Below are positions 1,239 through 26,467 of a DNA stretch of 26,467 nucleotides, piece by piece; position 1 is the stretch's first letter; each line of letters starts with the position of its first letter. The stretch comes from a virus, in the IMG/VR virus record IMGVR_UViG_3300030109_000772, positions 1-26,467 of that record, one strand, 5' to 3'. The notes below the pieces were generated by a model that was not told the DNA's origin, searched no databases, and saw nothing but the letters and a program-made list of their open reading frames with translations. A program made the translations under genes and the position numbers.

Positions 1239-4200
1239 ATGGATAAACTCACAGAATTCTTAACAAAACCTTTTTTAACTGAGGGAGCTAGAGATCCAGG
1301 TATATTTAAAGCTATATTTTTAGCTGGTGGACCTGGAAGTGGTAAATCTTATGTTGCTGGTCAATTATTTGGTATACCTGAAAAGATAAATGTATCTAAG
1401 TCAGGTTTAAAAATGGTAAACCAAGATTCTGAATTGGAAATGTTACTAAAGAAATACTATGGTACTACAGACTTAGATATTATGCCAGATGAACTATTTG
1501 CTGATTTGACAGGTGTTGATAGAGATGGAAATAAAGTTGATTACGATACAAGCGGTTTAAGAGCATTTGCCAAAACATTAAGTAAAGAAAGATTGAGATT
1601 ATATACTGAGGGTAGATTGGGTGTAATTATAGATGGAACTGGACACAAATATGGTTCTGTAAAAGAAAAGAAACAAAAATTAGAAGCATTGGGTTATGAT
1701 TGTTTTATGGTTTTTGTTAATACATCATTAGAAGTTGCTCTACAAAGAAATGAAGAAAGAGCAAGGGTTGTGCCAGAAAAAATTGTTAGAAAGAGTTGGC
1801 AAGATGTTCAAAACAATTTAGCATTTTTTCAAGGTTTGTTTGGTATGGGTAATTTTATGGTGGTTGGTAATAATAAGTTTTTAGATGCCAATCAAGCAAA
1901 AAGAAAATTTAAAATGTTAGTTAGTAAAGGTATTGATAAGTTTTTAAAACAGAAACCTAAAAATAAAATAGCAAAGGCTTGGTTAAGAAAAGAAAAGAAA
2001 TTTCAAAAAGTATTTAAAGATCCTGGCCAATCTCGTTTCTTTGAGGCTATTAAGATAGATGTTAATGTTGGTGATACAATTAAAGTAGGTAGATTCAAAA
2101 ACAAAAAAGTGTATGTTAAAAGTATTGGAAAAGACAAACACGGAATGCCAACAATAAATGGAAAGCCAGTTGTAAAATTTAGAATGGGTAAAGATACAGA
2201 CTTTTTGAAAAGTGTAGATGAAGCACCAAGAGTTCCACGAAAGAAAGGACAACATCGTGGTTCAAAGTCACATTCAGATTTATACACAGATGAAAATCCA
2301 AAAGGAACAATCAAAGGATTAAAGTTCGCTACAGTCGCAGATGCTAAGGCTTCTGTAAGTAAGATAAATGGAAGTGGTAAAAAACACGCACACAAAATTC
2401 AAGCTGCTGTCGCTATGGAACAAAGAGCTAGAGAGATGGGTAAGGCTTCACAAGCTGCTGTTTATAGAGCATACATCAATAAGATGAAAAAGAAAACCAA
2501 AAAGAAGAATGAAGAGTTTGGTGCACCTAAAGGATTCTTACCATCACCAAGCCGTAAGATGGTAAAGAAGATGAAGAAGAAAGGAAACACTTCAGTTCCC
2601 TATGGTAGTGGTTATAAAAAAATAAAAAATATAAAAGAAAGTCTTGACTTGTATACTAAAGAATTCGTATATTCTATTGTTGAGAATGGGGATAGTGCAT
2701 CTAATTTGAACGAAAAAAAAAATAAAAAAGTAATCGGTGTATTTGGTGGTAGATTCCAACCATTTCATTCAGGTCATTTAGCTACTTACAAATGGTTAAG
2801 TAAGAGAGTAGATGAGGCTTATATAACCACATCTAATATCAAACAACCACCACGACATCCATTGAACTTCAAAGAAAAAGTTCAACATATGGTTAAGATG
2901 GGCATTCCTAAAAACAGAATCATAGAGGAAAAATCACCTTATGTAGCAAACAATCTTTTGAAAAAATTTAAAGCCGATGATACAGCAGTTGTCTACACCT
3001 TTGGTGCAAAAGACGCTGGTAGGTTAAAAGCTGGCACAAAAAAGAGTGGTGGTAAAACTTACTATCAAGACTTTTTGAAAAACAAAAATAATTTAGAGGG
3101 ATTCGACATACACGGATATTATCTTACAGCACCACAATCAGGTAATGTTAGTGGCACTCAAATGAGACAATTGTTAGGAGATCCTAATATAGACGAAAAA
3201 CAAAGACAAAAGTTATTTAAAAGTTCGTTTGGATACTTTGACAAAGCTGTCTATAATATGATGACAAAAAGTTTTAAAAAACTATTTGAATCATTGATAA
3301 TAACAGATGAGTTGATAGAAGAATTTTTGTTAGAAGCTACTTCTAGTCCAGATGGAAATTTAGATGATGGTCCTTCTACATTTTATACTGATTATAACAC
3401 ATATAAAAAAACTTCTAAAGAATGGTTAGATTCTTTATATGATAAAGCTGGTTGGAAAGTAGTAAATTATATATTAGATGATAGAGCAGAGAATGGGATA
3501 GAGACAAACTACCATTCAGTACCTTTAACATTTTTAGACCACGGTCAAGCTACTGGCTCTACGAGAGCAGTCAATAAATACAAAAAATGGATGGGGGAAG
3601 TTGTTAGACCATTAGGTTGGGAAATAGTTAATTGGATGGGAAGTTCAGCTGCTATCAATAATATTATAGGTAGTTTATTTGCAGCTGGTGCTGACGCTGA
3701 TTCTTATACAGATGAAGATGGAGATGGTCTGTTTGAAAACATTCAAAGTAAAAGTAAATTAAAACAAAGAAGTAAAGAAAAGGAGTTACTGCTTATGGGC
3801 GGAGCTTATGGTCATTTAAGTCATCCATTTGATAATAAAAATCTTACATTTTCAGATTTTAAAACACTAATTATTAATACGTTACAAGGTAATCTTAGTA
3901 GTGAAGGCGCTGTTACAGAAAAAACAGATGGTCAAAATATAATGATAAGTTGGAAGAATGGAAAACTTATCGCAGCTCGTAACAAAGGACATATTAAAAA
4001 TCACGGTGCCAGTGCATTGGATATAAATGGTATTAAAAATATGTTCGCTGGGAGAGGTGAAATCGAAAAAGCCTTTGTTTATGCTATGAGAGATTTACAG
4101 ATAGCAGTTGGAAAATTAAGTAAAGCGCAAAAGGACAAAGTATTTGATGAGGGTAAAAAGTTTATGTCTTTAGAAGTGATATATCCAAAGACAGCAAATG

Positions 4201-5030
4201 TAATACCATATGATAAAGCATTGTTACAATTTCACGGAACAATAGAGTACGATTCTGCTGGATCTCCAATAGGAGAGGACAGAGGTAGTGCCAGAATGTT
4301 AGCTGGTATGATAAAGCAAATAAATCAAGACATACAAAAAGCATTTAAGATTACAAAACCATTTGTTACTAATTTGCCAAAAGTAAAAGATTTTAGTAAA
4401 AGACAAAGTTACTTTTTAGGTAAATTAAACAAATTAAAAAAAGAGTACGGATTGAAAGATACTGATACATTAGCTGATTATCACCAAGCCTATTGGTATG
4501 AATATATTTTTAACGCAGGAAAACAATTAGATAATCCTAATGTAAAAAATAATGTTATGGCTGGTCTTTTAAAAAGATGGGCATTTTTTGATAAGTCCTA
4601 TAAGATTCCGCAGATTAAAAAAGATTTAAAAGACCACCCTAAATTTTTAGAATGGGTATTATCTACTGATAAAAACGACCATTCTAAATTACAGAAAAAA
4701 CACATTAGAGATTGGGAAGTTCTTTTCTTTGAATTGGGTGCCGAAGTATTATCTAATATCAAAGATTTTATAGCAGCTAATCCTGATAAAGCTGTACAAA
4801 AGATAAAGAATGATTTGACTAAAACAATTTCTCAGGTAAAAAAAGCAAAGGATCCTTCTAAATTAGAAATGTTAAAAACACAATTAGATAGATTAAATGC
4901 TTTAGGTGGTTTCAAAAAGATTATTCCAAGTGAGGGAATAACTTTTGTTTTCAAAGGAAAGGTTTATAAGTATACAGGAGCATTTGCACCTGTAAATCAA
5001 ATTTTAGGAATGTTAAAGTTCGTGAGGTAA
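1239..5030 (+). CDS. Multi-domain P-loop kinase / nucleotidyltransferase / ligase-like protein
   Basis: 1263 residues; start chosen by AGGA seven bases before ATG. Residues 1-250: zeta-toxin or polynucleotide-kinase-like P-loop domain, Walker A GGPGSGKS at 30-37 and a lid-like QRNEERARVVPEK. Residues about 340-420: basic module with SHSDLYTDENPKGTIKGLKF and HAHKIQAAVAMEQRAREMGK, a pattern I recall from other viral proteins. Residues about 495-680: cytidylyltransferase/NMN-adenylyltransferase fold, GGRFQPFHSGH with H510 and H513, and SGTQMR at 638-643. Residues 700-840: unknown, including an acidic DADSYTDEDGDG. Residues about 850-1263: nucleic-acid-ligase-like domain, EKTDG with candidate lysine K895, AARNKGHIK, LEV around E979, EG at 1232-1233 and K1239/K1241 like motifs IV and V. 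Possible roles are RNA end repair (kinase plus ligase) or NAD synthesis (kinase plus NMN adenylyltransferase, as in NadR). Substrates are not provable here. Prohead-protease-like sites lie between the domains. Confidence 0.75.
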   Translation: MDKLTEFLTKPFLTEGARDPGIFKAIFLAGGPGSGKSYVAGQLFGIPEKINVSKSGLKMVNQDSELEMLLKKYYGTTDLDIMPDELFADLTGVDRDGNKVDYDTSGLRAFAKTLSKERLRLYTEGRLGVIIDGTGHKYGSVKEKKQKLEALGYDCFMVFVNTSLEVALQRNEERARVVPEKIVRKSWQDVQNNLAFFQGLFGMGNFMVVGNNKFLDANQAKRKFKMLVSKGIDKFLKQKPKNKIAKAWLRKEKKFQKVFKDPGQSRFFEAIKIDVNVGDTIKVGRFKNKKVYVKSIGKDKHGMPTINGKPVVKFRMGKDTDFLKSVDEAPRVPRKKGQHRGSKSHSDLYTDENPKGTIKGLKFATVADAKASVSKINGSGKKHAHKIQAAVAMEQRAREMGKASQAAVYRAYINKMKKKTKKKNEEFGAPKGFLPSPSRKMVKKMKKKGNTSVPYGSGYKKIKNIKESLDLYTKEFVYSIVENGDSASNLNEKKNKKVIGVFGGRFQPFHSGHLATYKWLSKRVDEAYITTSNIKQPPRHPLNFKEKVQHMVKMGIPKNRIIEEKSPYVANNLLKKFKADDTAVVYTFGAKDAGRLKAGTKKSGGKTYYQDFLKNKNNLEGFDIHGYYLTAPQSGNVSGTQMRQLLGDPNIDEKQRQKLFKSSFGYFDKAVYNMMTKSFKKLFESLIITDELIEEFLLEATSSPDGNLDDGPSTFYTDYNTYKKTSKEWLDSLYDKAGWKVVNYILDDRAENGIETNYHSVPLTFLDHGQATGSTRAVNKYKKWMGEVVRPLGWEIVNWMGSSAAINNIIGSLFAAGADADSYTDEDGDGLFENIQSKSKLKQRSKEKELLLMGGAYGHLSHPFDNKNLTFSDFKTLIINTLQGNLSSEGAVTEKTDGQNIMISWKNGKLIAARNKGHIKNHGASALDINGIKNMFAGRGEIEKAFVYAMRDLQIAVGKLSKAQKDKVFDEGKKFMSLEVIYPKTANVIPYDKALLQFHGTIEYDSAGSPIGEDRGSARMLAGMIKQINQDIQKAFKITKPFVTNLPKVKDFSKRQSYFLGKLNKLKKEYGLKDTDTLADYHQAYWYEYIFNAGKQLDNPNVKNNVMAGLLKRWAFFDKSYKIPQIKKDLKDHPKFLEWVLSTDKNDHSKLQKKHIRDWEVLFFELGAEVLSNIKDFIAANPDKAVQKIKNDLTKTISQVKKAKDPSKLEMLKTQLDRLNALGGFKKIIPSEGITFVFKGKVYKYTGAFAPVNQILGMLKFVR

Positions 5031-5032
5031 TT

Positions 5033-5560
5033 ATGGGATATAGTAAAGAAACAGAAAGACAAAATAAAGCATTAGGGGATTTATTGCAAGGAAGAGCGCC
5101 TGAAAAAAGAGTAATGGTTGGCTATGAGGGTAAAGAAAAAGAAAAGGGTGATATTATTCCTAAAATGACAGAGATAATGAAAGGGGTTAGAATGCCTTGG
5201 TTTTGTCCTGAATGTGATTCTGTTATGAAACAAAAATTAGATGATAAGATGTGGAGATTGTTCGGACATTGTTTTGATTGTCAAGTTAAGATAGAAAATA
5301 AACTTCGTATAGAGGGTAAATATGAAGAATGGGCTGAAGAGAAAATCAGACAAAATAAAATTTCTTTTTTAAAAGATTCTATACAAAAAATAAATGAATT
5401 TAGAAATCAAAAAGCTCCTGAATTTTATAATCAAGTTGGAGTTAATTATCCTGAATTAGAAAAAGAAAAATGGGATGTTGATATGACGCAAGTAAATGCT
5501 ATGGCTGATGAGGCTTTAGAAGAATACACAAAAGTTTTAAACGAACTGGAGAAACAATAA
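5033..5560 (+). CDS. Zinc-ribbon protein of unknown function
   Basis: 175 residues, starting two bases after the preceding stop, with GAGG as ribosome binding site inside the end of that gene. A four-cysteine zinc ribbon is visible: CPEC (C58, C61) and CFDC (C80, C83), in a segment rich in W and F. The N-terminus is charged; the C-terminal half (95-175) is helical and ends with a likely coiled coil (NAMADEALEEYTKVLNELEK). The stop overlaps the next ATG (ATAATG), which implies translational coupling with the following membrane protein. Zinc ribbons of this kind bind nucleic acid or stabilise small phage proteins; no specific role can be read off. It is not a recognisable T4 protein and is not the small terminase by any motif I see. 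Confidence 0.7.
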   Translation: MGYSKETERQNKALGDLLQGRAPEKRVMVGYEGKEKEKGDIIPKMTEIMKGVRMPWFCPECDSVMKQKLDDKMWRLFGHCFDCQVKIENKLRIEGKYEEWAEEKIRQNKISFLKDSIQKINEFRNQKAPEFYNQVGVNYPELEKEKWDVDMTQVNAMADEALEEYTKVLNELEKQ

Positions 5561-11499: not shown

Positions 11500-12362
11500 T
11501 GATTTCACTATTAGAAATTGCAACAAATATGAATGAGGCTGATGTCGATGATGATAAAATCGTCAAGTATAAAGACAAAGAGGGTGAGTCTCAAGAAATG
11601 ACTGCTGGTGCTGCTAAAAAGCAACCAGATGACCATCCAGCAAAAGTTGCTTATAATAAAATGTCAGGTGATGATGGCGATGATAGTGAAAAGGATTCTG
11701 GTGGTAAATTAGGTAGTGGTGATTTTGATAGAGATAGTGATGATGATGCCAAACCTGATACAGATGATGGTGATGCTGACGATGATGCTGGAGATGACGA
11801 TACTGATGTGTCTAAAATAGATCCTGAAATGTTAGCCGATGTAGGAGATATTGAAAGTGGTACTGATTTAGATAGATTTATAAATGATAATGGTGATAAA
11901 TTATCAGACCAACAAGAAGATGATTTGTATAAAGTTCAAGAAAAATTAGATGATGATAGTATATCTTCATTAGCAGCAAAAAATGAAATTAAAGGAATTT
12001 TATATCACGGTAGTAAAACTAATGCTACTCAGATTTCTGATGATAATTATGGTATGATTGATGCAGGTGATATACAAAAAACAATAATGGATGATCCTGA
12101 AATATCAAAAATATTAGGCGATGAAGATGATGTATATTTTGATGGGGATGAATTAGTTAGTTCAAAATATGATGATGAAACAGTTACAAGAGTTACTGGT
12201 TTTATGACTATCGGAGATTTAAAAAAGAAAATTAAAGATTTTGCAAAAACTAAAAAAGAATCAGTTAGAGTAATCAACGGAAAAAAATATAAAGCAGTAA
12301 AAGAATCAAAGAACCATCCTCTAAAACAAATTTATGACAGAACATTTAGGAGCTTAAAATGA
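11499..12362 (+). CDS. Acidic head-region protein
   Basis: 287 residues, coupled to the preceding gene by TAATG and to the protease gene by ATGA. The N-terminus MISLLEIATNMNEADVDDDK has LLE|I and MNE|A, prohead-protease-like sites close to the start. Residues 22-55 (IVKYKDKEGESQEMTAGA, then DHPAKVAYNKM) form a segment I recall as recurring in marine phage structural proteins. Residues 56-105 are an extremely acidic, low-complexity Asp/Gly run; the remainder is helical, with many Asp, and ends with a basic tail (VRVINGKKYKAVKESKNH). The acid-rich body resembles scaffold or core proteins, which fill the prohead and are digested or expelled. It sits directly before the protease, as small core proteins do in T4. 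Confidence 0.6.
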   Translation: MISLLEIATNMNEADVDDDKIVKYKDKEGESQEMTAGAAKKQPDDHPAKVAYNKMSGDDGDDSEKDSGGKLGSGDFDRDSDDDAKPDTDDGDADDDAGDDDTDVSKIDPEMLADVGDIESGTDLDRFINDNGDKLSDQQEDDLYKVQEKLDDDSISSLAAKNEIKGILYHGSKTNATQISDDNYGMIDAGDIQKTIMDDPEISKILGDEDDVYFDGDELVSSKYDDETVTRVTGFMTIGDLKKKIKDFAKTKKESVRVINGKKYKAVKESKNHPLKQIYDRTFRSLK

Positions 12363-12958
12363 GACAATTAATAGTAGATTACTTACCATTTGAAATACAA
12401 GCCGATCAAATCAATGAGGCTATGAAAGAAAACAACGGAAAGCTCGTTGTTAAAGGTGTTCTTCAAAGAGCAGACACCAAAAATCAAAATGGTAGAGTAT
12501 ATCCAAAAGAAATTTTAGTAAGAGAAGCGAAGAAGTATTCTGCTAATTTCGTAAAACAAAAAAGAGCTATGGGTGAATTAGACCATCCTGAATCATCTGT
12601 TGTTAATTTACAGAATGTATCTCATAATGTAACAGATATGAATTTTAATGGAGATGATTTAGTTGGTACAGTAGAAGTCTTAACTACACCAAGTGGAAAC
12701 ATTTTAAGAGAATTATTTAAGAATGGTATTAAGTTAGGTATATCTTCTCGTGGTATGGGTTCTGTTGAAACTATGAATGAAAATGGTGCACAAGAGGTGC
12801 AAGATGATTTTGAATTAATTGCTTTTGACTTCGTTTCTAATCCATCTACGCATGGTGCTTTTCTTCATCCAATGAATGAGAGTGTGGAAAATATTGCTGT
12901 CCGTGATACTAAGTATGGTAGAGTCGAAGCAGTAATTAATGATATAATGAGAGGCTAA
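12359..12958 (+). CDS. Prohead core protease (gp21-like, family S77)
   Basis: 199 residues (T4 gp21: 212), overlapping the preceding gene by ATGA. The herpesvirus-assemblin-like phage protease pattern is clear: GRVYPKEIL (46-53), GELDHP with H76, the nucleophile motif LGISSRGMGSV with S129/S130, and FDFVSNPSTHGAF with D157. In T4 the enzyme is built into the prohead core, activates itself, and then cuts scaffold, capsid and internal proteins after Glu in [L/I]-x-E sites. A matching site, QINE|A (E20), lies near its own N-terminus, as expected for self-processing. Its likely substrates in the window are the scaffold, the major capsid protein and several neighbours. Confidence 0.93.
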   Translation: MRQLIVDYLPFEIQADQINEAMKENNGKLVVKGVLQRADTKNQNGRVYPKEILVREAKKYSANFVKQKRAMGELDHPESSVVNLQNVSHNVTDMNFNGDDLVGTVEVLTTPSGNILRELFKNGIKLGISSRGMGSVETMNENGAQEVQDDFELIAFDFVSNPSTHGAFLHPMNESVENIAVRDTKYGRVEAVINDIMRG

Positions 12959-14098
12959 ATGCCAGCTAAATCCAAACAACAACAAAAGTTTATGGGTATA
13001 GTTAGGGCGATACAAAAGGGTGAAGCGCCCGCTGGAAAATTTTCAAAAGCAGCTCAGAAAGCTGCTAAGTCTATGAAGAAAGGTAGTGTAAGGAAGTATG
13101 CTAAAACAAAGCACGATGACTTACCAAAAAAAGTAAAGGAAGAAAAGAAAAGGGATTACAAAGCTGAGTATAAGAAATTTCAATCTTCTACGAAAGCTAA
13201 GAAATACAGAGCTGAATTAAATAAGTATAATCGTAAGAAAGGTACTTATGGAAATGGTGATGGTAAAGACGCATCACATAAGGGAGGAAAGATAGTGGGA
13301 TTTGAATCACAATCTAAAAACAGAGGAAGAGCTGAAAAAAGTCGATTGAAGAAAGAGGCTGTCATTACCGAAAATCCTGCAGTTATAGCTACAGCAGCTA
13401 GAATGGCAATACAAAACGCACAAGGTAAAAAAGTATCTGTAAATACTGCACGCCAAACATCTTATGCTAAGAAAGATCCTTCTGCTCATAAAAAAGCTAA
13501 AAGTATTTTTCAAAGAATTAAAGACAAATTTAAGAAAAAAGATAAGCCAGCTCCGAAAAAACAATCTAAATCAGATGTAGATTTTTACAAAAGACAATAC
13601 ACAGGTGAATCCGTAGTTGAAAAAGTAACATATCACGATGGTGGTAGAACTGTTGGTATAGATGTTAGAGATTTATATAATTATCTGTTGGCTTTAAAGA
13701 AAGCCAATCCTGCTAAATTTAAAAAAGATATGCAAAATAGACATATTAAAGCTATATTTAAAAGATATTCTAAAGGTGGAGAAATGTATCAAGAAGGTTT
13801 TGGTGGGGAATTAAAAGGAAAAGCTAAACAAAAATTTGAAAAAGCAAGAAAAGAAAATGCTGAAGTATTGGGATATAAACTTACTGGCAAAAGTGATATA
13901 AATGAAGTTAATATAAAAGATATACAATCAGTTCTTAAAAAAAAACAAGCCAAAAAGATTAATGGTATGTATATGGATATGACAACTGCTAATGCTATTA
14001 TGACAGTTTATAAAGCACTTAACAAATCTAATCAAAAAAAATTCACTAAATTACCATTAAGGAAAATGGTAGATGTAACTTGGAAGTTAGTAAAGTGA
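12959..14098 (+). CDS. Basic mosaic protein with DUF3008-like N-terminus
   Basis: 379 residues, starting right after the protease stop, AGAGG upstream. Residues 1-60 match the DUF3008 pattern (PAKSKQQQKFMGIVRAIQKG, then KSMKKGSVRKYAKTKHDDLP). Residues 65-125 form a second module (EYKKFQSSTKAKKYRAELNK, KGTYGNGDGKDASHKGGKIV, KNRGRAEKSRLKK) that I recall from many viral proteins. After a helical and Lys-rich part comes DVDFYKRQYTGES and a C-terminal module (VLKKKQAKKINGMYMDMTT, ANAIMTVYKALNKSNQKKF). The protein is strongly basic, like DNA-bound internal head proteins, and contains VITE|N and INE|V sites that a gp21 protease might cut. No catalytic motif is seen. Function unknown; a packaged DNA- or RNA-binding protein is the best guess. 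Confidence 0.65.
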   Translation: MPAKSKQQQKFMGIVRAIQKGEAPAGKFSKAAQKAAKSMKKGSVRKYAKTKHDDLPKKVKEEKKRDYKAEYKKFQSSTKAKKYRAELNKYNRKKGTYGNGDGKDASHKGGKIVGFESQSKNRGRAEKSRLKKEAVITENPAVIATAARMAIQNAQGKKVSVNTARQTSYAKKDPSAHKKAKSIFQRIKDKFKKKDKPAPKKQSKSDVDFYKRQYTGESVVEKVTYHDGGRTVGIDVRDLYNYLLALKKANPAKFKKDMQNRHIKAIFKRYSKGGEMYQEGFGGELKGKAKQKFEKARKENAEVLGYKLTGKSDINEVNIKDIQSVLKKKQAKKINGMYMDMTTANAIMTVYKALNKSNQKKFTKLPLRKMVDVTWKLVK

Positions 14099-14144: not shown

Positions 14145-14777
14145 ATGTCAAATATTAAACTAAAAGATTTATTGAATGAAGTGGGATTGAGTGGAGTAGT
14201 TTCACGAAGTCCGTGGGCTAAAAACGAAGAAAAAAAACCACAAATAAATGTAAAAGAATTAGTTAATTCTATTAACAATTATAGTTCTTTAGGTGAAAAT
14301 ATTTATGGTAATGGCAATTTAAAACAAGTAGCAGAAACACTTTCAAAAATGGCTGAGGGTGCTGCACAACATACACTTTCTGAAACAGAAGATATGTTTG
14401 ACAAAGTTACTGTTAGTCGTAATATGAAAGAACTCACAGGTTTATCTAAACAATTTGGCAAAGTAGCTATGGAAGCTAACTCTCTTCAAGAAAGAATGAC
14501 AGGTCTTTATGAGGATATGGGAAATATTTTAGGAAGATATTATAAGATAAACGAAAAGCACGTTCGAGGTCACGATGACGATGATAGAGATATGAGAGAT
14601 GATATGGATGAAGCTGATAAAATGATGTTCAGAGAAGAAGATGATTATAAGGCATTCTTTAAAAAAGCTATGAAAAAATTTAATGTATCTGATATTGAAG
14701 ATATGAATGATGAAGAGAAAAAAGACTTCTTCAATTATGTAGATAGAAATTATAAGGCGAAAAAAGAAACAGATTAG
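14145..14777 (+). CDS. Head-region protein with capsid-targeting-like N-terminus
   Basis: 210 residues, strong ribosome binding site (AAGGAG). The first 12 residues, MSNIKLKDLLNE|VGLSG, look like the T4 capsid-targeting sequences that end in a prohead-protease site. The middle is helical (QVAETLSKMAEGAAQHTL; RNMKELTGLSKQFGKVAMEA) with a probable coiled coil to about residue 135. It is followed by a His/Asp/Arg run (KHVRGHDDDDRDMRDDMDEA) and a C-terminal helical module DYKAFFKKAMKKFNVSDIED, KDFFNYVDRNYKAK, which I recall as a recurrent tail of marine phage structural proteins. No enzyme motif. Likely a head core or internal protein by position and N-terminus; this is inference. Confidence 0.65.
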   Translation: MSNIKLKDLLNEVGLSGVVSRSPWAKNEEKKPQINVKELVNSINNYSSLGENIYGNGNLKQVAETLSKMAEGAAQHTLSETEDMFDKVTVSRNMKELTGLSKQFGKVAMEANSLQERMTGLYEDMGNILGRYYKINEKHVRGHDDDDRDMRDDMDEADKMMFREEDDYKAFFKKAMKKFNVSDIEDMNDEEKKDFFNYVDRNYKAKKETD

Positions 14778-16214: not shown

Positions 16215-17837
16215 ATGTCAAACTTTGATAATCTGAACTCTTTGATGACTGGGCATAACCCACACAAAGAGCTTCTCAAACAGACTAGGAAACTGGTCGA
16301 TAAATGGGAACCGACCGGATTGTTAGACGAAATCGATGACTCCACTAAGAAAACAGGAATGGCTGTTCTTTTAGAAAACCAGGCAACTCAGCTTATTAAA
16401 GAAGCTTCGGGTACAGGTACTGGCGGTTCTAAAGAAGAATGGTCTGGTGTTGCTTTACCACTGGTTCGTAGAATCTTTGGTGAACTTTCAGCACAAGAGT
16501 TTGTTAGTGTACAACCGATGAATCTTCCATCAGGTCTGATTTTCTTTTTAGACTTCAAATATGGATCTGCCGGATCACAAATCGATCAAAACTCTGATGT
16601 ATTTGGTAATACTTCAGGTTCTGGCGATGCTAGTGGTGGTCTTTATGGTGCAGGTAAATTTGGATATTCAATCAACGATAAGAAAGCTGAAGGTATTACT
16701 CCACTTGGAATGACTACTGGTTCTGCTACTTGGAAAGAAGTTGATTTTGAACCTGATCTAAGTGCTTCTGTTGCTGATGGAACACTTTTAAAAGTTCAAC
16801 TTGGTGCTGGTTTATTTACTAGACCTGACTACAATGGCATACGTGCTTGGGAACTTAGTGGTTCTGGTGTAACAGCTGTTTATCCAGCTTATAGTGTTGT
16901 CGATGATGTAAACAATGTAACAACTGCGAGTTTCTTTGCTAAGATTACTCCTGCTGATGGTATGTTGTTCGGTGTTCGCTATCACGAATCTCCAACTGCT
17001 GAGAATCGTGGTGATTTTGAACAGAGTTCATTTACTACACCTGGTCCTTCTTCTGCTGATGATCTTGAGATTCCAGAAGTAGACATCCAGTTAAGAAGTG
17101 AAGCTATCGTTGCTAAAACAAGAAAGTTGAAAGCTGTATGGACACCTGAACTTGCTCAGGATCTTAACGCTTATCACTCTGTTGATGCCGAAGCTGAACT
17201 TACAGCGATGCTATCTGAGTATATCGCTATGGAAATCGATTTGGAAATCGTTGATATGTTAAAAGCTAATGCTTCTGCTAAGACAGCATACTGGTCAGCT
17301 AAAGTTGGCTATGAGTATGATGGTTCTGGCACAGGTGATGATGCTTTTTCACAGATTAGTGGTGCTTCAAACGCATACACAAAGTCATCCTGGTTCCAAA
17401 CACTTGGAATTAGAATCCAATCTGTTTCTAATGCAATTCATCAGAAAACACTACGTGGTGGTGCTAACTTTGTAATCGTTTCACCTGAAACTGCTACAAT
17501 CTTAGAGTCTGTAAGTGGATATGTTGCTAATACTGGTGACGCTTCTGCTAAGACATACGCTATGGGTGTTGAAGCAATTGGTTCAATCAATAACAGATAT
17601 ACTGTCTATAAGAATCCTTATATGCTAGACAATACAATACTATGTGGTTTCAGAGGAAGTAACTTCCTTGAAACAGGTGCTGTATATGCTCCGTATGTAC
17701 CGATGATTATGACTCCGTTAGTATACGATCCTCAAAACTTTACTCCACGTAAAGGTGTGATGACTCGTTACGCTAAGAAGATGGTTCGTCCTGAATTCTA
17801 CGGAAAAGTTATTGTAACTGACATCGATCAAGTTTAA
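16215..17837 (+). CDS. Major capsid protein (gp23-like)
   Basis: 540 residues (T4 gp23: 521), GGGAG upstream. The HK97-fold gp23 family is recognised from WSGVALPLVRRIFGELSAQE and VSVQPMNLPSGLIFFLDFKY, from the later segment KTRKLKAVWTPELAQDLNAY and EYIAMEIDLEIVDML, and from the C-terminal NPYMLDNTILCGFRG and VYDPQNFTPRKGVMTRYAKK. The N-terminal 63 residues form a propeptide: LIKE|ASGTGTGG at E63 matches the T4 cut at E65|A66 in place and motif. Codon use is richer in C-ending codons (ATC, TTC, AAC) than in neighbouring genes, typical of a very highly expressed gene. An intrinsic terminator follows within 25 bases. Confidence 0.96.
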   Translation: MSNFDNLNSLMTGHNPHKELLKQTRKLVDKWEPTGLLDEIDDSTKKTGMAVLLENQATQLIKEASGTGTGGSKEEWSGVALPLVRRIFGELSAQEFVSVQPMNLPSGLIFFLDFKYGSAGSQIDQNSDVFGNTSGSGDASGGLYGAGKFGYSINDKKAEGITPLGMTTGSATWKEVDFEPDLSASVADGTLLKVQLGAGLFTRPDYNGIRAWELSGSGVTAVYPAYSVVDDVNNVTTASFFAKITPADGMLFGVRYHESPTAENRGDFEQSSFTTPGPSSADDLEIPEVDIQLRSEAIVAKTRKLKAVWTPELAQDLNAYHSVDAEAELTAMLSEYIAMEIDLEIVDMLKANASAKTAYWSAKVGYEYDGSGTGDDAFSQISGASNAYTKSSWFQTLGIRIQSVSNAIHQKTLRGGANFVIVSPETATILESVSGYVANTGDASAKTYAMGVEAIGSINNRYTVYKNPYMLDNTILCGFRGSNFLETGAVYAPYVPMIMTPLVYDPQNFTPRKGVMTRYAKKMVRPEFYGKVIVTDIDQV

Positions 17838-23977: not shown

Positions 23978-26467
23978 ATGGGCGTAAAAGTAACAGGACA
24001 ATTTGAACCCGCAGGTGATTTTTCTATAGTAGATGGCGCAGATGTATCTGGAGCTATCACTGGTAGTCACTTTAGTGGTTCAGCTGCTTCAACAGGCTCA
24101 TTCGGGCGTTTATTTGTTTCTTCATCTATGGAGCTTGGTGGTGGAATATTCACATCTGCTTCGATAGCATCAGGTGGTGCTACTGGTGGAACTGGTGGTA
24201 CTGGAACTGGTGGTACTGGTGGTACAGGTCAAACAGGCGGAACAGGTGGTACTGGTCAAACAGGCGCTACAGGTGGTACTGGTGGCACTGGCGGAACTGG
24301 TCACACAGGTGGTACTGGTGGAACTGGGCAAACAGGTGGTACTGGTGGTACAGGAGAAACTGGAGCAACTGGTGGCACAGGCGGAACTGGTGGAACTGGT
24401 ACTGGTGGTACGGGCGGAACTGGTCAAACTGGCGGAACTGGTGGCACAGGTGAAACTGGCGGAACTGGTGGAACTGGTCACACAGGAGGAACTGGTGGTG
24501 TAGGTGCTACTGGCGGAACTGGTGGTACTGGTGGCACAGGTGAAACAGGCGCTACAGGCGGAACTGGCGGAACTGGTGGAACAGGTACTGGTGGTACTGG
24601 CGGAACAGGTCAAACTGGCGGAACTGGTGGTACAGGTGAAACTGGCGGAACAGGAGGAACTGGAGCAACTGGTGGAACAGGTGGAACTGGTACTGGTGGT
24701 ACTGGTGGAGATGGTGCTACGGGCGGAACTGGTGGTACTGGTGGTGCTGGTACTGGTGGTACTGGTGGAACTGGGCAAACAGGTGGTACTGGTGGCACAG
24801 GTCAAACTGGTGGTACTGGTGGCACAGGTCACACAGGTGGAACAGGCGGAACTGGAACTGGTGGTACTGGTGGAACAGGCGCTACAGGTGGCACAGGTGG
24901 AACTGGTGGACAAGGTACTGGTGGTACTGGTGGAACTGGACATACAGGTGGAACAGGTGGAGATGGAGCAACAGGCGGAACTGGCGGAACTGGTGGCACA
25001 GGAGAAACTGGTGCAACTGGTGGAACTGGCGGAACTGGTGGAACAGGCACTGGTGGAACTGGTGGTACTGGACATACAGGTGGAACAGGTGGTACTGGAC
25101 AAACAGGCGGAACTGGCGGAGATGGTGCTACGGGCGGAACTGGCGGAACTGGTGGAACAGGCACTGGTGGTACTGGTGGCACAGGTCAAACTGGTGGAAC
25201 AGGCGGAACTGGTCAAACTGGCGGAACTGGCGGAACTGGGCATACTGGTGGTACTGGTGGAACGGGCACTGGTGGAACAGGTGGTACTGGAGCAACTGGT
25301 GGCACAGGTGGAACTGGTGGACAAGGAACTGGTGGTACTGGTGGTACTGGTCACACAGGTGGAACTGGTGGAACTGGAACTGGTGGAACAGGTGGAGATG
25401 GTGCTACAGGTGGTACTGGTGGAACTGGACAAACTGGAGCAACAGGTGGAACTGGTGGTACTGGTGGACAAGGAACAGGCGGAACAGGTGGAACTGGACA
25501 TACTGGTGGTACTGGTGGCACAGGTGGAACTGGAGAAACGGGCGCTACTGGTGGTACTGGTGGAACTGGTGGAACAGGCACTGGTGGAACTGGCGGAACT
25601 GGGCAGACAGGTGGAACTGGTGGTACAGGTCAAACTGGCGGAACAGGTGGAACTGGAGAAACAGGCGGAACTGGTGGCACAGGTCACACAGGTGGAACAG
25701 GTGGAGATGGAGCAACAGGCGGAACTGGTGGAACAGGTGGAACTGGAACTGGTGGAACTGGTGGTACAGGCGCTGCGTCTACCGCTACTGGGGGTACTGG
25801 AGGAACTGGTGAAACAGGTGCAACGGGAGGCACAGGTGGAACTGGTGGAACAGGTACTGGCGGTACTGGTGGAACAGGCGCTACAGGTGGAACTGGCGGA
25901 ACTGGTGGACAAGGAACTGGTGGAACTGGTGGTACTGGTCACACAGGAGGAACTGGCGGAACTGGACAGACAGGCGGAACTGGTGGAACAGGCGCTACAG
26001 GTGGTACTGGTGGAACTGGTACTGGTGGAACAGGTGGAGATGGAGCAACTGGTGGCACTGGTGGTACAGGTGGAACTGGGGAAACAGGCGCTACAGGTGG
26101 AACTGGTGGAACAGGCGGAACAGGCACTGGTGGAACTGGTGGTCAAGGTGCAACTGGTGGTACTGGTGGTACAGGTCACACAGGCGGAACTGGTGGAACT
26201 GGAGCAGCTAGCACAGCAACTGGTGGTACTGGTGGAACTGGAGAAACAGGTGCCACAGGCGGTACTGGTGGTACTGGCGGAACTGGTACTGGTGGTACTG
26301 GTGGTGTAGGTGCTACTGGCGGAACTGGTGGCACAGGTCACACAGGCGGAACAGGCGGAACTGGACATACTGGTGGTACAGGTGGAACTGGAACTGGTGG
26401 AACAGGAGGAACTGGAGCAGCTAGCACAGCAACTGGTGGTACTGGTGGTACTGGTCAAACAGGCGCT
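23978..26467 (+). CDS. Giant Gly-X-Thr repeat fibre protein, 5' part
   Basis: The frame runs from the ATG at 23978 to the window end without a stop (830 codons), so the gene is incomplete. The start fits: AGGA lies seven bases upstream and the previous stop is nine bases away. Residues 1-65 are a fibre-type head: [20 protein letters not shown], then [12 protein letters not shown] (33-44), as in the two preceding fibre genes. From about residue 66 on, everything is collagen-like Gly-X-Thr triplets. X is mostly Gly and otherwise Ala, Gln, Glu, His, Asp or Val; there is no Pro, Cys or aromatic residue. The triplet register is shifted at intervals by a Gly-Thr dipeptide and by three GAASTAT insertions. 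It could form a collagen triple helix or a polyglycine-II bundle; either would give a long, flexible fibre. Longer-looking ORFs on other frames here are by-products of the repeat. Confidence 0.88.
24173..26467 (+). repeat. Degenerate 9-base tandem array coding Gly-X-Thr
   Basis: About 2.3 kb of GGN-NNN-ACN units, chiefly GGTGGTACT, GGTGGAACT and GGCGGAACT. The strand is G-rich and C-poor and stands out by its GC content (over 50 percent) from the AT-rich surroundings. Units differ mainly at synonymous third positions. Often two GGT triplets are followed by one with a charged or polar X (GQT, GET, GHT, GAT), giving a looser 27-base period. The array continues past the window. Confidence 0.95.

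Follow-up and report, generated by a model that had tools for sequence, protein, structure and literature searches.

What kind of protein is made when a kinase, a nucleotidyltransferase and a ligase-like domain share a single phage reading frame is the question raised by IMG/VR virus record IMGVR_UViG_3300030109_000772, whose 26,467 bases are the stretch analyzed here (the window). Positions 1239 to 5030 of its forward strand form one open reading frame (ORF) that runs from ATG to stop without internal stops and encodes 1,263 residues. A P-loop kinase, an HxGH nucleotidyltransferase (NT) and, at the C terminus, a ligase-like domain (CTD) lie in the frame with their catalytic motifs intact, together with at least three further modules at about residues 262-322, 326-440 and 700-845. 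Genes for terminase, portal, a gp21-type protease and a gp23-type capsid protein follow downstream, and the virus is therefore a T4-type phage; by terminase and capsid protein its nearest named relatives are Microcystis phage Mel-JY01 and Flavobacterium phage immuto (49-55% identity). We propose, with a probability of roughly two in three, that the product is a head-destined polyprotein that would be packaged, processed by the prohead protease and delivered on injection as an RNA-repair kit.

The motifs that a sequence-only reading had assigned to a single frame of 1,263 residues are each found in the translation at the position it gave, and the three folds that it proposed (kinase, nicotinamide mononucleotide (NMN) adenylyltransferase (NMNAT) type, and ligase-like) were recovered by Pfam, profile and AlphaFold/Foldseek searches. 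An assembly fusion, the objection raised in that reading, is ruled out, since dozens of independent IMG/VR contigs, 57-100% identical, carry it as the same continuous frame (1-1262/1263). Short patterns run against viral contigs recovered 267 relatives and a second scan at least 597; the marine T4-type viruses that carry the polyprotein are a very common group. Kinase-ligase fusions are known, namely bacterial Pnkp and fungal Trl1. Our literature searches found no described kinase-NMNAT-ligase fusion and no packaged RNA-repair enzyme, consistent with the earlier statement that no characterized enzyme has all three parts.

The T4 prohead protease gp21 cuts Alt at ITE-6 and LTE-619 (PMC5694885) and also cuts core and internal proteins (PMC5694885, PMC9958956), and gp23 loses its first 65 residues (PMC9958956); [LI]xE↓[AGS], where the arrow marks the cut, is the motif at which the T4-type prohead protease cleaves. 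In the polyprotein and its relatives, [LIV]xE followed by a small residue recurs ahead of modules: the kinase, where E15-G16 is invariant, the module that we call M700 and, in the majority of relatives, the CTD (LLxE↓GG). When [LI]xE[AGS] was counted in 56 non-redundant proteins and compared with shuffled sequences, the linkers held 165 matches against 45.8 ± 6.5, and the kinase, NT and CTD cores held 8 against 40.0 ± 6.0, shuffle statistics that overstate the certainty because the relatives are not independent. Control patterns in which D, K or N replaced E, or in which the order was reversed, followed the opposite trend; TerL, a control that is not in the prohead core, showed no depletion (37 versus 29.7), and portal was depleted (36 versus 55.8). 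A scan of all residues singled out glutamate at P1 (3.5-fold in linkers, 0.2-fold in cores), Leu (4.5-fold) and Ile (2.3-fold) at P3, and Gly, Ser and Ala at P1'. The weight rests on the specificity of the pattern and on the untouched controls. As expected from the sequence of a gp21 substrate, (I/L)xE↓ sites stand at the end of the leader and at module borders and are rare in the folded cores.

The leader itself (MDKLTEFLTKPFLTEG) resembles those of the T4 internal proteins, of which IPII and IPIII begin with MKTYQEFIAE↓A and IPI with MKTF...TITE↓A. A leader of the type M..KLTE[FWY]L..PF..E precedes four different first modules, i.e. the kinase in 24 cases, a module here labelled KOW-like in 18, the basic module M330 in 2 (L213 and L240, where it lies directly behind the leader) and the NT in 1. 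Stand-alone kinases begin with MIKLxxLLxE↓G, with MIPFILKE↓G or, in Methylophilales phage Melnitz, with MKTFAELQE↓G. Among the other ORFs of the related loci, leader-like starts were found in 61 of 2,230 forward frames, many of them members of one 142-residue family, and in 0 of 4,858 antisense frames. One short leader placed on unrelated modules looks like a targeting signal, and is predicted to be one. The scaffold-like ORF of the window contains six sites of the [LI]xE↓[AGS] type. In locus L233, a protein that looks Nudix-like by eye starts at position 438 with MSIPKLIDLITE↓I, and is possibly a further packaged enzyme.

The modules are shuffled and split among the relatives. The kinase is encoded by a separate gene in L041, L057, L073, L160, L161, L162, L164, L177 and L184, and the CTD in L075, L161 and LR756500. 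NT and CTD form the conserved pair, fused in Mel-JY01, LR756508 and L124 and adjacent in LR756500, and the kinase is dispensable (L117, L118, L119, L124). This shuffling and splitting, together with the protease-like sites between modules, suggests separate enzymes released from one packaged precursor, and a head-targeted, cut precursor would in turn explain why the modules are so freely shuffled, split and fused; the single enzyme with three activities envisaged by the sequence-only reading is thus probably wrong. The terL gene, seen in 254 loci, is downstream and no more than 6 kb away in every one of them. The only matches in genome contigs are L122, L123 and L124, short contigs of metagenome-assembled genomes (Flavobacteriales, Rhodospirillales, Bacillus) that are probably phage sequence binned with hosts.

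The kinase carries the Walker A motif GGPGSGKS at residues 30-37, and Pfam matches residues 26-199 to AAA_33 (1.3e-8) and Zeta_toxin (5.9e-9). Profile searches retrieved tRNA(Sec) kinase (PSTK, 1.4e-4) and the kinase domain of Clostridium thermocellum Pnkp (CthPnkp, 6.6e-4). In an AlphaFold model of residues 1-690 (overall pLDDT 65, confident only in kinase and NT), Foldseek ranks CthPnkp first to sixth for the kinase (E 9e-6 to 3.5e-5), above adenylate kinases, zeta toxin and PSTK, so that the closest solved fold is a polynucleotide kinase. A zeta toxin was rejected: Pfam names this family, yet profile and fold put polynucleotide kinase first and zeta lower. Walker A, NxD and the RNxxR lid (N61, D63, R170 and R174 in the window) are kept in 55 of 55 relatives; by analogy to T4 Pnk, we take NxD to be the general base and RNxxR the lid.

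For the C-terminal third of the window protein a Pfam scan gave no match, and a CTD sequence profile found only chance matches in the PDB. The CTD nevertheless presents, in order, the motifs of the covalent nucleotidyltransferase superfamily: EKTDG with K895 (motif I, KxDG, with the nucleophilic lysine), E979 (III), EG at 1232-1233 (IV) and YKYTG with K1244 (V). Across the relatives the stretches EKxDG, ARN, (L/I)E(V/I), EG..F and YKxTG recur; the motifs are conserved in 182 of 182 sequences (one of them in 181), with motif I in all 182 and E979, E1232-G1233 and K1244 invariant. The AlphaFold model (pLDDT 88, pTM 0.81) retrieved RNA ligases as top Foldseek matches in the PDB: a fungal tRNA ligase (probability 0.93), archaeal Rnl3, T4 Rnl1 and Rnl2, and the Naegleria ligase. 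In a viral model library the closest entries are direct relatives annotated "cytidyltransferase-like", followed by many viral RNA ligases with, in their midst, a Synechococcus phage S-PM2 protein that bears this annotation too. In hhalign comparisons of the kinase and CTD profiles with single kinases and ligases (p 0.006-0.28), which alone are not significant, several aligned stretches lie on catalytic motifs, those of the CTD with RNA ligases on motifs I and III. Because the TM-scores are low and a large helical insert separates motifs III and IV, we call the domain RNA-ligase-like and not an RNA ligase. Membership of the CTD in DUF6267 was rejected, as there was no profile match and the likeness is limited to the surroundings of KxDG.

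The NT carries HSGH at 510-513, within GRFQPFHSGH, and SGTQMR at 638-643, i.e. both the HxGH and the (I/V)SxTxxR motifs of NadM-type NMN adenylyltransferases. Pfam CTP_transf_like matches residues 501-585 (8.5e-9), and the closest PDB match of the NT profile is the archaeal NMN adenylyltransferase MJ0541 (6.8e-8). The region around GxKD is unlike that of NadM and the NMN-binding side is not recognizable; as 44 of 145 copies moreover read GPHH, without the first His of HxGH, NMN is only a candidate substrate.

Six giant relatives carry a tRNA nucleotidyltransferase head inserted upstream of the NT (PolyA_pol, 5.5e-31 in L126, of 2,463 residues, and 1.5e-29 in L122, of 1,909 residues), and three of the six have an HD domain by motif, which Pfam confirms in L126 and L037. 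In the Escherichia coli CCA enzyme the HD domain has 2',3'-cyclic phosphates as its substrate, so that an HD domain in this place fits the repair of cut tRNA, and the two additions point to RNA/tRNA repair. RNA repair seems the most coherent cargo theme. Of the two pathways offered by the sequence-only reading it is the better, with a kinase near CthPnkp and PSTK, a CTD near RNA ligases and these additions in the giants; the other, rebuilding of NAD+, has lost ground. At even odds we put the more specific proposal that marine T4-type phages carry in the head a polyprotein processed by the prohead protease, which would supply a complete set for tRNA repair (kinase, ligase and at times tRNA nucleotidyltransferase with HD) and an NMNAT-type ligase partner with a presumably coupled chemistry. 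Separately from the polyprotein, LR756500 holds an RNA-repair pair (L271, 311-2514, minus strand), in which a protein with HD and kinase domains stands beside a ligase with EKLDG (PF09414, 3.2e-29).

The proposed course of events is as follows. The gene would be expressed late, and the leader would take the precursor into the prohead core, where the gp21-type protease would cut [LI]xE↓[AGS] between modules and free a polynucleotide-kinase-type kinase, an NMNAT-type NT, an RNA-ligase-type enzyme and the small modules. These would be injected with the DNA and be active at once, most likely on RNAs, above all tRNAs, cut by host defence nucleases; the kinase would restore 5'-phosphates and the CTD would seal, in some relatives tRNA nucleotidyltransferase and HD domain would rebuild and clean the 3' ends, and the NT may restore NAD+ or serve the ligase step. 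An anti-defence role of the polyprotein is what we infer from this scheme.

Domains, motif conservation, site pattern, leader sharing and synteny were computed directly; packaging, cleavage, injection, substrates and a counter-defence benefit we infer. Several observations weigh against the proposal. The CTD border in the window reads LLLM↓GG, so that only the weaker LFE833↓N could free the CTD, and ahead of the NT stand LNE492↓K and IKE467↓S, neither an ideal close site; the non-independence of the relatives was noted above. No 3'-phosphatase was recognized in the window protein. The second lysine of motif V (KxK), expected of an RNA ligase, is a threonine, and T1246 is invariant there; the best Foldseek E-value of the CTD is 1.2e-3, with TM-scores of 0.20-0.25, and Pfam RNA_ligase appears in 6 of 31 CTD members, subthreshold (best E 0.033).

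These points leave room for other explanations. A single cytosolic multidomain RNA-repair enzyme in the style of bacterial Pnkp or fungal Trl1, made in the infected cell and neither packaged nor cut, would agree with the known single-chain kinase-ligase enzymes and with the matches to CthPnkp and fungal tRNA ligase; we consider it unlikely in view of the late head-gene position, the shared leader, the confinement of protease-like sites to linkers and the free swapping and splitting of modules. The altered motif V (YKxTG instead of KxK) and the low TM-scores would suit a CTD that is a covalent nucleotidyltransferase of another trade, such as a capping-like or protein-modifying enzyme, or an inactive structural derivative. 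This is quite unlikely, given the complete or nearly complete invariance of motifs I, Ia, III and IV and of the first lysine of motif V across the 182 sequences, and because the stretches aligned with RNA ligases coincide with motifs I and III.

The closeness of the NT to an archaeal NMNAT, and the proposal that phage NadR and NadM are counter-defence enzymes (PMC9503650), would agree with rebuilding of NAD+ by the logic of NadR against NAD-depleting defences, in which the kinase makes NMN from nicotinamide riboside, the NT makes NAD+ and the CTD is accessory. This explanation loses force because the nearest matches of the kinase are polynucleotide kinases and because NAPRTase/NadV is missing from 17 of 18 related records, many of them fragments (NAPRTase is present in 1 of the 18); NT and CTD are, moreover, the conserved pair, and the kinase is dispensable, so we judge it very unlikely. 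Highly improbable is a direct coupling, in which the CTD takes AMP from NAD+ and the NT turns the NMN set free back into NAD+, or in which the NT prepares RNA ends for the CTD by adenylylating their 5'-phosphates. It would account for why NT and CTD, fused or adjacent, stay paired in the distant lineages seen, where other modules are gained and lost; against it, the likeness of the CTD is to RNA ligases of the ATP type, the Ia domain of NAD ligases was not recognized in it, and the reasoning is purely chemical. The packaged polyprotein remains our preferred explanation.

Table 1. Features of the polyprotein frame and of its surroundings in the window (arrows mark predicted cuts)
Feature	Residues	Positions	Strand	Basis or remark
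Leader, MDKLTEFLTKPFLTE↓G, predicted capsid-targeting	1-15	1239..1283	+	Ends in LTE15↓G; leader shared; T4 likeness
P-loop kinase, polynucleotide-kinase type	16-258 (core 22-240)	1284..2012	+	Pfam, profile, AlphaFold and Foldseek
Small module KOW (our own label, not an established fold)	262-322	2022..2204	+	Recurs elsewhere in relatives' chains
Basic module M330	329-440	2223..2558	+	After VDE328↓A; 76-78% identity with hypothetical ORFs of cyanophages
Candidate prohead-protease site IKE467↓S		2637..2639	+	Site pattern
HxGH-superfamily nucleotidyltransferase, NMNAT-like	495-690	2721..3308	+	CTP_transf_like; MJ0541 profile match
Candidate prohead-protease site LLE699↓A, ahead of M700		3333..3335	+	Site pattern
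Module M700	700-845	3336..3773	+	Contains LFE833↓N; conserved, beside NT in most relatives
CTD, RNA-ligase-like covalent nucleotidyltransferase, predicted adenylate-accepting K895	848-1263	3780..5027	+	Invariant motifs, AlphaFold, Foldseek
Zn-ribbon-like protein, directly downstream		5033..5560	+	CPxC...C..C pattern by reading; Pfam match subthreshold
T4 gp21-type prohead protease, presumed processing enzyme		12359..12958	+	Own site INE20↓A; phrog_207 head maturation protease, 2.7e-55
210-aa head-cluster protein, start MSNIKLKDLLNE		14145..14777	+	Start near-identical to leader of relatives' stand-alone kinase (MIKLKDLLNE↓G)
Major capsid protein, gp23-like		16215..17837	+	Site LIKE63↓ASG where T4 gp23 predicts

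The Zn-ribbon-like gene accompanies 257 of 261 related loci with a median gap of 3 nt, and no tRNA genes were found in the window or in 13 loci. An M330-like ORF of Synechococcus phage Bellamy sits between tail fibre and terminase genes. In the head cluster of the window, an ORF at 12959-14098 (forward strand) combines a DUF3008-like start with a DYKAEYKKFQSSTKAKKYRAELNKYNRKKGTYGNG module that is also found inside the giant relative L122, so that small modules travel between head-region proteins. Locus L118 (5602-8346) is a relative in a 484-kb phage with a weak ParB-like domain (4.4e-4) where the kinase would stand, and no relatives of it were found among viral contigs. Flavobacterium phage immuto gp088 (L278, 1632-4352), annotated as NadR, looks multidomain, with a Pol-beta-like nucleotidyltransferase, an NT with GGFKPPHLAH and two HExxH-like stretches, and also carries a VKE↓G site; it was rejected as a relative of the polyprotein, being a different multidomain protein without CTD. 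At 23978-26467 (forward strand) an open-ended frame of more than 800 residues with Gly-Thr-Gly-Gly-Thr-type triplet repeats (collagen-like fibre) continues past the end of the window, and the long ORF antisense to it is probably spurious.

If the proposal is true, T4-type phages use their head protease as RNA viruses use polyproteins, and one targeting leader would load a changeable enzyme set into the capsid in a fixed ratio. RNA repair would then be in place before any phage gene expression, at the time when anticodon nucleases act, and the combination of the leader with [LI]xE↓[AGS] between modules would give a sequence rule by which to search hundreds of contigs of uncultured marine phages for injected cargo. 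A further question raised is why an NMNAT-like domain should be the constant partner of an RNA-ligase-like enzyme.

Among known systems, NadR and NadM share with the NT the GRFQPFHxGH and SGTxxR motifs, as well as the MJ0541 profile match; in contrast, the window NT is fused to a ligase-like domain and has no Nudix domain, its kinase is not of proven riboside type, and the GPHH copies depart from the motif. T4 Pnkp/Rnl1 and bacterial Pnkp likewise combine a polynucleotide kinase with an RNA-ligase-like enzyme, whereas in the window these would belong to a head-destined precursor with an extra NMNAT-like partner, an altered motif V and no recognized phosphatase. The phage family DUF6267 (PF19782) has a KWDG motif in similar surroundings, and in Pelagibacter phage HTVC008M its gene lies close to those for a homologous kinase and an NT-containing protein; neither by sequence nor by profile does it match the CTD significantly, and kinship is only suspected. 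Polyvalent proteins of phages and plasmids (Iyer et al. 2017, PMC5512222) are mosaic chains of many unlike domains predicted to be injected, and both the mosaic architecture with several unlike domains per chain and the ParB-like domain of L118 recall them. Their release by embedded zincin peptidases is proposed there, with RNA ligases arising in the passages found only as a comparison with T4 repair; the sites in the window fit the prohead protease instead, and RNA repair is the proposed cargo. The Pfam scan of the window protein and scanned relatives showed no peptidase; an embedded zincin-like one is a common polyvalent theme and not a strict requirement. In outcome the proposed processing is analogous to that of T4 Alt and the internal proteins IPI-III, which have a capsid-targeting leader, are cut by gp21 and enter the cell by injection; shared are the short N-terminal leader ending in (I/L)xE↓A/G and, in the window cluster, T4-type gp21 and gp23, and Alt is cut at both ends (PMC5694885). 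T4 cargo consists of single proteins, whereas the polyprotein would bring several enzymes in one precursor with sites between them.

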